NCBI GenBank assembly: GCA_944388965.1
Contig: CALXKL010000002.1
Span: 186,001 to 250,000 of the forward strand
Reading direction: 5' to 3'
DNA length: 64,000 nt
Source: an uncultured Spirochaetales bacterium
Lineage (GTDB): Bacteria; Spirochaetota; Spirochaetia; Sphaerochaetales; Sphaerochaetaceae
The notes below the pieces were generated by a model. The model saw only the letters and a list, made by a program, of their open reading frames with translations. It ran no database searches and was not told the origin of the DNA. The translations under genes were made by a program, and so were the position numbers. Positions 19,876 to 25,081 of the stretch are shown here, in pieces. The stretch's first letter is position 1. The number at the start of each line of letters is the position of its first letter.

Positions 19876-21603
19876 CTACTCCAGAAGCTCGCTGGCGTTG
19901 TCCATGATGTAGGCATAGCTCTGGAACGTGCCCCACTGGCATGTCAGACGATCGCCGCACACACATTCACCGCACAATCCGATTCCGCACAGCGTGCTGC
20001 GCTCGAGCGAGAGAAGGATGTCCTCACGCTCCAGTCCAAGGTCGACGAGCCGGGATGCGGCTATGGCCATGAACTTCTCCGGACCGACTAGATAAGCCTT
20101 CAGATCCTCCCTGCCCTGCACGTGCTCGGCAAGGTGGTCGAGCACGCGTCCAACCTTACCATCATCGGCTATGACCTCATACGAATCTGCATGTCCACGA
20201 AACCAGTCCTCGAAAAGAGCCTTGCCGTCACATCCCTTCACGGATGATGCACTGGTACCGACAAGCACGTCGATGTGGGCGTGCGAAGGCTCGATCATGC
20301 GACATAATGAAGGCAGCACGGCAACGCCGCTGCCCCCTGCGACAAGAAGCGCATTCCTGCTGGATGGCGTCTCAAGCGGCCTGCCATATAGACCTCTGGT
20401 GTACACCGTATCGCCGACCTTGAGGTCGAACATGGCGTTTGTGAATGCACCACGTCTGCGGATCAGGAAAGTCAACGGATCGTTGTGCGCAACGGAGAAA
20501 GGCTTCTCCCCGATACCGGGCACGAAGAGGAACGCGAACTGACCGCTGTGGCACTCGAGAGTCCCGTCCAGCTCCATTACAAGCATCTCGGGGGTATGCT
20601 CCATCAGTTTCACGATCCTGTGTGGAACATACTCCATCCTGTTTACGCCGCTGATGAACGAACGGGCCCTGTCGTCTATGCGGCCGCCTTTGCAGAGAAT
20701 GGCCACCTCATCCTTCAGGGTGGACAGATACCGGGGCCAGTCCTGCTGCGCAATGGTGCCGAACACGGATCCGATACCAACGACATCCGCTCCGGCCTCG
20801 ACCATGGCAATGGCATCATGTGCATCCTGCACACCTCCCATTCCGATGATCACCGGCCCGTCTCCCACCGCCGTCCTGATGGACCTGACGGCATCGAGCG
20901 CGACATCCTTGATCCAGGCACCGGAGGCTCCGCCCTTTCCACCAAGGGCGTTGTTCAGAATAGGCTGTCCGCTGTGCTTCTCGGTGTACAGCCGCGGTCC
21001 GACGGTGTTGATTGCGACGATTCCGTCCGCACCGGCCTCGATGCAGCCGATGGCGATCGAGGCTATGTCGTCGACGTTGGGTGTGAGCTTGACCAGGAGC
21101 GCCGACTTCTGCTGCGGGAAGGCCTCCCTGATTCCCCTGACATACGAAGATGCGATTGAGCAGTCGCTGCCGATGGAGGCTCCGAAGCCTGCCTTCGCAT
21201 GAGGACAGGAGAAGTTGAGCTCGATCGAGTCGGCGACGTGGTCGAACGCCCTGACGAGCGTCACGAAGTCCTCGATGCTGGATGCGCTGACCGAGACGTT
21301 CAGGAGGCTGCCCAGGCCATTGGCCCTCAGCTTCTCCAGCTCGGCAAGCGCCACGTCCATGCCGGGGTTCCTGAGTCCTACGGAATTCCCGAAGTCGCCA
21401 GGTGCGACCTCACAGACCACGGGCTCCCTGTTTCCGGGGTTCGCCGTCACCTGGAAGCTCTTGGTGGTGATCACGTCGATGCAGGTGTCCTTGTCGAACC
21501 AGCGGATCATCTCCTTCTTCGTGGAGGCGACGCCGCTGACCGTAGACAGCAGGAGGCGATCGGAAAGGTGCGCCCCGACTATTGAAGATATCCTGTCAGT
21601 CAT
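19876..21603 (-). CDS. pyrD: Dihydroorotate dehydrogenase fused to its electron-transfer subunit (PyrD-PyrK)
   Basis: A 575-residue fusion. Residues 1 to about 325 are a class 1B PyrD with FMN barrel motifs: NVSVSASS, ELNFSCPHAKAG with the active-site Cys, KLTPNV, INTVGPRL, GGKGGASGAWIKDVAL and VIIGMGGVQ. Residues about 335-575 are PyrK-like: a FAD/NAD reductase fold with LLVAGGSGVAVLPSL and a C-terminal [2Fe-2S] cluster of Cys residues in CGIGLCGECVCGDRLTC. Electrons would pass from orotate-forming FMN to NAD+. PyrD and PyrK are normally separate proteins. The ATG (21601-21603) overlaps pyrF by 4 bases; an upstream extension is rejected. The fusion order is D then K, with no frameshift visible. 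Confidence 0.9.
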   Translation of the reverse strand: MTDRISSIVGAHLSDRLLLSTVSGVASTKKEMIRWFDKDTCIDVITTKSFQVTANPGNREPVVCEVAPGDFGNSVGLRNPGMDVALAELEKLRANGLGSLLNVSVSASSIEDFVTLVRAFDHVADSIELNFSCPHAKAGFGASIGSDCSIASSYVRGIREAFPQQKSALLVKLTPNVDDIASIAIGCIEAGADGIVAINTVGPRLYTEKHSGQPILNNALGGKGGASGAWIKDVALDAVRSIRTAVGDGPVIIGMGGVQDAHDAIAMVEAGADVVGIGSVFGTIAQQDWPRYLSTLKDEVAILCKGGRIDDRARSFISGVNRMEYVPHRIVKLMEHTPEMLVMELDGTLECHSGQFAFLFVPGIGEKPFSVAHNDPLTFLIRRRGAFTNAMFDLKVGDTVYTRGLYGRPLETPSSRNALLVAGGSGVAVLPSLCRMIEPSHAHIDVLVGTSASSVKGCDGKALFEDWFRGHADSYEVIADDGKVGRVLDHLAEHVQGREDLKAYLVGPEKFMAIAASRLVDLGLEREDILLSLERSTLCGIGLCGECVCGDRLTCQWGTFQSYAYIMDNASELLE

Positions 21604-22484
21604 GCCTTGACCTGGGTGTCTGCCACGAGGCTCCTGAGAGATGCCATGCACATCTCGAGCCAGTCCTCGGGTACGGGTGCCTTCTTCCAGGGATGCGTGA
21701 GACCGCTGGAGGAGTTTATCCTGGATAGCCTGACATCATAGGACGCCTCACGAAGGGCTCCCATGACATCCTGTGCGCTGCCGCCCTGGCTTCCCACGCC
21801 CGGAATGAGCGTCGGGATGTCCTTGCCCGCGTAGTAGCGGACGATGGCCTTCAGCTCCTCCATGCTCGTCGCACCGACGACGGCGCCGATGCCGGCATGC
21901 TCACCCGCCCAGGCGGCGATGTGATGGGCGACGGCGATGTACAGAGGATACACGTCCCTCTCCTCGACCTTGTCTATGGTCAGGATGTTCTGCAGCTCCC
22001 TTCCGCCGGGGTTGCTGGTGCGGTTGAGCACGTATATCCCCTTATCGGCGAATGCGAACGGAAGCACGGAGTCGCTTCCCATGTAAGGCGAGACGGTGAC
22101 GGCATCGGCTCCCCAGCCCTCGAAGGCCTCCTTGGCGTAGTTCAGGCTGCTCTTGGCGATGTCGCCCCTCTTGCTGTCCAGGATGACAGGAATCGAAGGG
22201 AAGAACGACGAAAGCATGTCCAGCACGTCGGCAAGGGCCTGGCTGCCTTCGAAGTTCTCGTCACGCGGTCTGTCGTTGATGACATAGTAGCCGATGTTCG
22301 GCTTGAACGCCGCAGGGGAAACCCCCTCCAGCTTCATGCGTCTGAAAAGCTTCTCGAAGAAGCCGTTGACGCGGTCCCTGAAGCCTCCCTCTCCTGGAAG
22401 GACGTCCATGACGGGGTCCAGACCCATGCAGGCCACGTTTCCGGTATAGTCAGCGCTCTGTCTCAGCAGTTCGACGTAATCCAT
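21600..22484 (-). CDS. pyrF: Orotidine 5'-phosphate decarboxylase (type 2)
   Basis: A 294-residue decarboxylase making UMP. It has the catalytic Asp-Lys-Asp set in LDSKRGDIAKS, the N-terminal CMGLDPVMDV, FKPNIGYY, VTVSPYMG and the C-terminal phosphate loop PGVGSQGGS. The length and sequence match the type 2 PyrF subfamily found in actinobacteria and some other phyla. It starts 3 bases after pyrE's stop and overlaps pyrDK by 4 bases. Confidence 0.95.
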   Translation of the reverse strand: MDYVELLRQSADYTGNVACMGLDPVMDVLPGEGGFRDRVNGFFEKLFRRMKLEGVSPAAFKPNIGYYVINDRPRDENFEGSQALADVLDMLSSFFPSIPVILDSKRGDIAKSSLNYAKEAFEGWGADAVTVSPYMGSDSVLPFAFADKGIYVLNRTSNPGGRELQNILTIDKVEERDVYPLYIAVAHHIAAWAGEHAGIGAVVGATSMEELKAIVRYYAGKDIPTLIPGVGSQGGSAQDVMGALREASYDVRLSRINSSSGLTHPWKKAPVPEDWLEMCMASLRSLVADTQVKA

Positions 22485-22487
22485 GCT

Positions 22488-23186
22488 TCACCTCTCGAGT
22501 TTGGGAAATCCGTTCTTCTCACCCCAGCCGAACGGATCCTCCCGCCAGCTGTGGAGCATCTTGGCCTCGTCATCGGTTATGTAGCCCACCTCCTGGGCGG
22601 TCTTCACCATCACGGGGTAGCTGAGTATGGTATAGGCCTCGCAGGAAGGATCCAGGGCAGCAAATGCCTGGCTGGCGGCATCCAGGCCGTATGTGAAGAT
22701 GGCAAGGCAGTACGGGACGAGTCCGTCCGCATCGACGATTGCCTTGACCGCGGCGATCGAACTTTTACCCGTGCTGATCAGGTCCTCTATGAGACAGACC
22801 GTGTCGCCATGATAGCTACCATCCTTTCCAAGCCCCTCGATCTGATGTCCCAGACCATGGTCCTTGGAAGAGCTCCTGACATAGGTCAGAGGCTTCTGGA
22901 GACGGTCTGCGAGCGTGGTCGCATGAGGGATGCCTGCAGTGGCCGTTCCGGCGATGCTGTGCGGATCCATTCCAAGCGCCTCGAGCATGTCCGTGAAGGC
23001 GTCGCAGATCAGGGCACGGTAGCCGGCCTTGGCCAGGAACTGCCTGTTGTCGTTGTAGATCGGCATCCTGTAGCCGCTTGCCCAGGTGAAGGGCTCCTTC
23101 GGAGAGAGTCTGATCGCTCCGAGCTCGAATGCAGCCTTGGCAAGCTGCGGTCCATAGTATCTGGTTATCTCCTCAATGGTCTTCAT
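22488..23186 (-). CDS. pyrE: Orotate phosphoribosyltransferase
   Basis: A 232-residue enzyme joining orotate to PRPP. The PRPP-binding loop is VCLIEDLISTGKS, with the earlier conserved YNDNR, ATAGIPHA and VRSSSKDHGLG (catalytic loop Lys). It begins at ATG 23184-23186, with GGAGGT about 10 bases upstream; a longer in-frame reading extends back into the pyrBI gene and is not used. A 64-base gap after pyrBI holds only its ribosome site. It supplies the substrate of PyrF, encoded next. Confidence 0.95.
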   Translation of the reverse strand: MKTIEEITRYYGPQLAKAAFELGAIRLSPKEPFTWASGYRMPIYNDNRQFLAKAGYRALICDAFTDMLEALGMDPHSIAGTATAGIPHATTLADRLQKPLTYVRSSSKDHGLGHQIEGLGKDGSYHGDTVCLIEDLISTGKSSIAAVKAIVDADGLVPYCLAIFTYGLDAASQAFAALDPSCEAYTILSYPVMVKTAQEVGYITDDEAKMLHSWREDPFGWGEKNGFPKLER

Positions 23187-24875: not shown

Positions 24876-24902
24876 AAAAAAAAATCCCTTCGAAAAGGGA
24901 TT
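24876..24902 (-). terminator. Attenuator terminator of the pyr operon
   Basis: On the transcript AATCCCTT (24902-24895) pairs perfectly with AAGGGATT (24890-24883) around a UUCG tetraloop, and a run of U continues to 24876. It is a textbook intrinsic terminator, 20 bases before the pyrBI start codon and one base after the leader-peptide stop codon. Confidence 0.93.
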
Positions 24903-24903
24903 C

Positions 24904-24981
24904 TCATCTGGTTTCAAATGAAAACAGAAGTCCTATGCAGCGCTCCACATGATCATCCGGTCCTAGATAGCAGCAGTGCAT
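24904..24981 (-). CDS. pyrL: pyr leader peptide (25 residues)
   Basis: A 25-codon reading frame starting at ATG 24979-24981 with an AGGAGA ribosome site 6-9 bases upstream. The peptide begins MHCCYLG and ends GLLFSFETR. Its last codons span a U-rich stretch (CUUCUGUUUUCAUUU) and its stop codon is 1 base before the terminator stem. In the enterobacterial pyrBI system, RNA polymerase pauses in U-rich leader RNA when UTP is low, so the coupled ribosome reaches the hairpin and blocks it. The geometry here fits the same mechanism. The peptide sequence is not homologous to PyrL; the symbol is by analogy. Confidence 0.78.
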   Translation of the reverse strand: MHCCYLGPDDHVERCIGLLFSFETR

Positions 24982-25002
24982 GAACTTCTCCTGTCGGGCT
25001 TG

Positions 25003-25032
25003 AGGATATCAGGTTTGTGCGAATCGTGTAAA
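25003..25032 (-). promoter_or_regulatory. Promoter of the pyr operon
   Basis: TTTACA (25032-25027), 18-base spacer, TATCCT (25008-25003) preceded by TG-A, an extended -10. Initiation near 24996 puts the leader-peptide ribosome site at the very 5' end of the transcript. Confidence 0.62.
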
Positions 25033-25039
25033 GAGCAGG

Positions 25040-25071
25040 AAGAGGAAGAATGGCGACCGTCTCCGGTCGCC
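25040..25071 (-). terminator. Terminator after the Wzc-like gene
   Basis: GGCGACCG (25071-25064 on the transcript) pairs perfectly with CGGTCGCC (25059-25052) around GAGA; the tail AUUCUUCCUCUUCC is pyrimidine-rich but not a clean U run. It sits 10 bases after the stop of the polysaccharide gene and upstream of the pyr promoter. Confidence 0.6.
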
Positions 25072-25081
25072 ACCATCCGCT

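Follow-up and report, generated by a model that had tools for sequence, protein, structure and literature searches.

The closest described system is the pyrBI attenuator of Escherichia coli and other enteric bacteria (pyrL; Turnbough and co-workers), the textbook case of UTP attenuation coupled to translation. At low UTP, RNA polymerase pauses on the U-rich template of pyrL and a coupled ribosome blocks the terminator (PMC10135430; PMC5021804). The pyr leader analyzed here, from an uncultured Spirochaetales bacterium, resembles it in the genes controlled, in a leader ORF that reaches the terminator, in a U-rich tract and in the distance from the ATG to the hairpin (88 nt in E. coli, a median of 72 nt in spirochaete leaders, with 63-83 nt for the middle 80%), a likeness of anatomy between leaders whose sequences cannot be aligned. 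It differs in the end of the leader, which is usually at or in the hairpin in spirochaetes, whereas the 44-codon leader of E. coli ends past it, and in the operon, since a fused pyrBI followed by pyrE, pyrF and pyrDK stands together in the spirochaete, unlike E. coli pyrBI. E. coli pyrBI has a second control, UTP-dependent slippage at the transcription start, which is not a defining part of the attenuator; it needs a U run, and the start region predicted in the spirochaete, CAAGCCCGAC, has none.

The E. coli pyrE attenuator (rph-pyrE) is also UTP-sensitive and is translated up to its terminator, the translated frame being there a whole gene, rph, and in the spirochaete a short ORF with its own, probably masked, ribosome-binding site. 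The locus is like the trpL, hisL and ilv attenuators in having an intrinsic terminator after a leader peptide, and it differs from them in lacking their control codons and antiterminator. With the PyrR-dependent attenuators of Bacillus and relatives it shares an intrinsic terminator in the leader of a pyrimidine operon, and it differs in being translated and in having neither PyrR nor a PyrR RNA site. As in pyrL, there is a short ORF with a ribosome-binding site, in frame to the terminator, together with a U-rich tract and no PyrR.

The pyr leader and its operon

Positions refer to the window, the whole 64-kb stretch of DNA that was analyzed. A sequence-only reading of it, which stated no strand for the pyr leader, had listed a promoter, a ribosome-binding site, a 25-codon leader ending one base before an 8-bp UUCG terminator, a U run and then pyrBI; all these parts, as well as the rest of the operon, were found, on the minus strand and in the order pyrBI fusion, pyrE, pyrF and pyrD-pyrK-like fusion after the terminator (Table 1).

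Table 1. Features of the pyr locus (window positions; promoter to terminator parts given 5' to 3' on the minus strand)
Feature	Positions	Strand	Basis
Terminator-like hairpin closing the Wzc-like kinase gene (upstream neighbour)	25049..25074	-	sequence
Promoter: -35 TTTACA (25032-25027), 18-nt spacer, TG-extended -10 TATCCT (25008-25003); whole, TTTACA-18-TGATATCCT	25003..25032	-	sigma70-like site scan
Leader Shine-Dalgarno (SD), AGGAG	24988..24992	-	sequence
SD hairpin, 5' arm (SD/start), AGGAGAAGUUCAUGCA	24977..24992	-	fold; pairing kept across 39-40 unlike leaders
Leader ORF, ATG at 24981, 25 codons, MHCCYLGPDDHVERCIGLLFSFETR, TGA at 24906-24904	24904..24981	-	sequence; frame conservation
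SD hairpin, 3' arm (anti-SD), UGCAUAGGACUUCUGUU, running into the U-rich tract	24923..24939	-	fold; pairing test
U-rich tract, GUUUUCAUUUG, where UTP-sensitive pausing is presumed	24915..24925	-	sequence; U enrichment across relatives
Intrinsic terminator, 8-bp stem, UUCG loop and U run: hairpin AAUCCCUU-UUCG-AAGGGAUU (24902-24883), U run to 24876	24876..24902	-	sequence, folding; relatives' terminators
pyrBI fusion, bifunctional aspartate carbamoyltransferase catalytic/regulatory, 534 aa	23251..24855	-	NF009916, 822 bits (cut-off 800)
pyrE, orotate phosphoribosyltransferase	22488..23186	-	NF001729, E 9e-36, below cut-off; TIGR00336
pyrF, orotidine 5'-phosphate decarboxylase	21600..22484	-	TIGR02127, above cut-off
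pyrD-pyrK-like fusion (dihydroorotate dehydrogenase and electron-transfer part)	19876..21651	-	NF005574 and NF000796, both below cut-off

The pyr promoter is the sole sigma70-like match in 11 kb, a match that alone is no evidence because 3.3 are expected by chance in such a scan; by eye, a comparable layout precedes the leaders of most relatives. Transcription is expected to start near 24996, as predicted from the promoter sequence, and the hairpin that closes the Wzc-like kinase gene sets the promoter apart from upstream transcription. On both strands of the window, the pyr leader is the only ORF of 10-45 codons with SD and ATG that ends at an intrinsic terminator. A match to the Rfam family Mu-gpT-DE over the promoter and SD (23.5 bits, gathering threshold 49) was put down to chance.

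Elsewhere in the window (1080-1003, minus strand) lies a 25-codon ORF rich in Ile, Leu and Val, MKRYISTTSSEPSGAIVLIALLIGD, with an SD; an inverted repeat and a U run come after it, and the ORF has the look of a leader peptide of the branched-chain amino-acid (ilv) type. Both leaders have indeed 25 codons, as had been remarked, but no meaning attaches to this equality, which is a coincidence since among relatives the length of the pyr leader ranges from about 13 codons to over 30.

Conservation of the translated frame and the probable signal

The genus of the source genome is represented by 16 genomes, and its family, the Sphaerochaetaceae, includes Bullifex, Ornithospirochaeta and Sphaerochaeta. 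The pyrBI fusion gene is present in 119 of the 139 family genomes, from which 99 distinct upstream regions were gathered, 89 of them with an automatic terminator call. The leader start was chosen from the SD and start codon only, blind to the frame; 75 regions with SD and ATG were kept, and 44 leaders less than 70% identical made up the conservation set.

From this start the frame is open to within 12 nt of the terminator in 41 of the 44 leaders, against 15.9±3.0 in dinucleotide shuffles (maximum 26 in 500), while the other two frames are open in 13 and 14. The first stop falls between -12 and +20 of the hairpin base in 35 (8.8±2.5 in shuffles), its position varying from just before the stem to the loop or after the stem; a ribosome arriving at the stem would block the terminator whatever the position of the stop. 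No peptide sequence is shared across the clades of the family, and it is thus the act of translation, and not the peptide, that is conserved; a functional leader peptide was ruled out, as the sequences vary freely while the frame stays. The leader is very probably a translation-coupled attenuator, judging from the sequences compared. The comparison of upstream regions proposed in the sequence-only reading thus found the leader frame conserved together with the terminator; the U-rich leader end is conserved too.

Leaders without an SD, in an Ornithospirochaeta-like subgroup and in genus g21, retain the frame as well. In eight leaders (L074, L079, L095, L136, L155-L158) the ATG is very near the -10 box and the mRNA is probably leaderless; their ORFs have 13-20 codons, frame and terminator are kept, and an SD hairpin was not found. 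In other spirochaete families, a leader with a terminator was seen in f3, f19 and f14, and perhaps f16; by eye, it was not seen in f2, f4, f6, f7, f9-f12, f18 and f21. Outside the spirochaetes, inspection by eye showed no leader in Parabacteroides.

Across the family leaders, U content climbs toward the terminator, with a T peak of 0.55 at -15 to -10 and a U excess of 213, against 0.3±24 in a codon permutation, and A and G drop where U climbs. An attenuator of the ilv or trp type, responding to tRNA charging, would share the leader peptide and the terminator, and a classic-looking ilv leader lies in the same window; however, the leaders contain no run of a single residue, no amino acid is enriched more than 1.5-fold over expectation across them, and no antiterminator able to pair with the terminator arm was detected (mean z +0.5, 0 of 44 below -2), so that amino-acid control was in the main ruled out and is highly improbable.

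Attenuation by PyrR, another RNA-binding protein or a riboswitch, with the short ORF as an incidental feature, has in its favour that PyrR control is usual in Firmicutes and that five of the 139 family genomes carry a PyrR homologue. In the source genome the best match to NF003549 has 25 bits (cut-off 138 bits), no Rfam PyrR/pyr RNA element was found even at a loose threshold, and PyrR was not found in 134 of the 139 family genomes; in the sequence-only reading PyrR-type binding sites were not evident and the absence of pyrR was proposed as a check, and both searches were negative. The homologue (231-237 bits) occurs in one genus (G030, G031, G032, G057 and G058), on a different contig from the pyr operon, where it perhaps serves only as uracil phosphoribosyltransferase. 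Since the PyrR-carrying genomes examined (L152 and L153) still have a translated pyr leader, PyrR has not replaced it. With PyrR and its RNA element absent here and the frame conserved, control of this kind was ruled out, and we give it hardly any credence.

The U enrichment, the lack of PyrR, control codons and antiterminator, and the behaviour of E. coli pyrL together make UTP the likely signal, which we hold with some confidence, a reading that rests on leader anatomy and the E. coli precedent. That a translation-coupled attenuator reads general translation capacity, or overall NTP or ppGpp levels, and not UTP specifically, seems improbable: the anatomy does pin down ribosome dependence better than it does the signal, but a U-rich tract fronts a pyrimidine operon, and A and G fall just where U rises. 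A wider regulon was considered and rejected, the uracil/xanthine permease genes of the genus having no such leader.

Pairing of the ribosome-binding site with the leader tail

In the window, the leader and terminator together fold with a z of -3.7, the SD core on its own being only half masked (P 0.48). Leaders in general fold better than shuffles (mean z -1.5), and for this reason each SD/start region was tested for pairing with the pre-terminator tail, both that of its own leader and those of all the others. This comparison of cognate and permuted pairs was chosen because the pairing register drifts, which weakens clade-internal covariation counts. Cognate pairing reaches -15.8 kcal/mol against -12.4±0.45 for permuted pairs (40 leaders), and none of 20000 permutations was as good; on a window-by-window grid the signal is found only on the diagonal, as a hairpin must give, between SD/AUG and -30 to -10 of the terminator (z -10.1). 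Such z values are not exact probabilities, the leaders being mostly of one family, although permuted partners drawn from the same clade set a higher bar for the cognate pairs. Control pairings were flat, both for the pyrBI SD with its own gene (z +0.7 and +0.3) and with leader tails (z +1.1).

In 33 of 39 leaders the SD core pairs with the distal part of the leader at P>=0.5 (mean 0.75). G-U pairs account for 35% of the pairs made by G on the SD arm and for 11% in terminators, indicating the use of U at positions where C would give the stronger pair, with the reservation that terminators are themselves selected for G-C. In the Ornithospirochaeta group, by eye, the base after AAGG upstream of the start codon (G, U or A) has its match in the tail, where C, A or U precedes CCUU. 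The signals of U enrichment and SD pairing overlap in part. The SD hairpin is not universal, since it was not found in the SD-less leaders of g21, where the frame is kept, and SD-less leaders as a set gave P=0.16 in a joint hairpin test, with a start-codon hairpin in one subgroup only.

From these pairing data we regard the SD hairpin as very probably real. Its function is less firmly placed. The UTP attenuator could be kept and the hairpin be a polymerase-pause hairpin, as is the rule in hisL and trpL, or limit repeated translation of the leader, instead of timing ribosome entry; its 3' arm ends a median of 12 nt before the terminator, so that it could lie behind polymerase pausing close to the base of the terminator hairpin. 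This is unlikely in our view, as the signal has its centre at SD/AUG and disappears in windows slightly upstream or downstream. In E. coli pyrL, moreover, the pause at the site studied is not helped by NusA and is not restored by compensatory changes (PMC9291695), which argues somewhat against a pause hairpin at that site. The SD hairpin was missed by the sequence-only reading and probably alters how the switch works. The ribosome-binding site of the trpL leader can likewise be masked by downstream RNA. In the literature searched, to which older pyrBI papers (e.g., Roland 1988; Turnbough and Switzer 2008) did not belong, no description was found of SD masking in a pyrBI leader or of pyr leaders in spirochaetes, and the SD-sequestering hairpin is apparently new and previously overlooked.

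A proposed mechanism and its reach

As a whole, the locus is likely to be a ribosome-dependent transcription attenuator, most likely UTP-sensing, with an SD-masking step. Comparison of relatives establishes a translated frame tied to the terminator, an enrichment in U and the SD hairpin, as well as the lack of PyrR and of an antiterminator; to these parts we add by inference pausing, UTP as the signal and the role of timer. Polymerase would transcribe a short leader whose frame runs into the intrinsic terminator and, when UTP is scarce, would pause in the U-rich tract, so that a ribosome could load, trail the polymerase as far as the stop codon, at the base of the hairpin, and prevent the terminator from folding, and pyrBI-E-F-DK would be made; with plentiful UTP, polymerase would outrun the ribosome and transcription would end. 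The leader SD and start codon would pair with a segment just before the terminator that either coincides with the U-rich tract or extends into it. As long as polymerase is in the tract, the anti-SD would still be inside the enzyme and the ribosome-binding site open; once polymerase is past it, the freed anti-SD would mask the site and late ribosomes could not load. The pause tract would therefore be both the UTP sensor and the timer of ribosome entry, although for the timer role of the hairpin we see the chances as even.

A like fold is predicted for the pyr leaders of E. coli, Klebsiella, Proteus, Photobacterium, Aeromonas and Ilyobacter, the gammaproteobacterial comparators being records from a plasmid collection; a scan of viral contigs for comparators found nothing. 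The pairing of these six leaders is matched by 5 of 720 permutations, and that of Proteus is no better than with foreign SD regions. In E. coli K-12 MG1655 pyrL (L163), the ribosome-binding site CGGGAGGA is predicted to form a hairpin with UCUUCCCG in the U-rich pause tract, most SD bases pairing at P near 1, so that the SD is predicted to pair with the U tract in pyrL and in the spirochaete leaders alike. In the fusobacterium Ilyobacter polytropus (pILYOP01, 280-450; L260), an ORF of 57 codons including the stop, annotated as 'hypothetical protein' before pyrB, ends in a terminator, and its ribosome-binding site pairs with a U-rich tract (predicted pairing AGGUAGAAAA/UUUUCUACCU); it is probably a pyr leader peptide. 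Upstream of pyrB in Neisseria (L262), a 24-codon ORF with an SD ends 7 nt before a terminator-like hairpin and is a possible pyr leader, in which SD pairing was not found (P=0.04).

Tentatively, and with slightly more doubt than belief, the pyrBI attenuators of spirochaetes, of gammaproteobacteria including E. coli and of at least one fusobacterium may share an overlooked part, a U-rich pause tract that is, or adjoins, the leader anti-SD, so that the position of polymerase gates ribosome entry. The presence of this attenuator anatomy across one spirochaete family and in some others means that repressor-free control of the pyrimidine operon is either old or arose repeatedly. Pairing between the ribosome-binding site and the U tract offers a simple and testable answer to how the terminator depends on UTP, as the same nucleotides would slow polymerase and guard the ribosome-binding site. 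If this is true, the textbook model in which the ribosome catches up would become one of a ribosome-entry timer, and the reading of the E. coli system would change with it.
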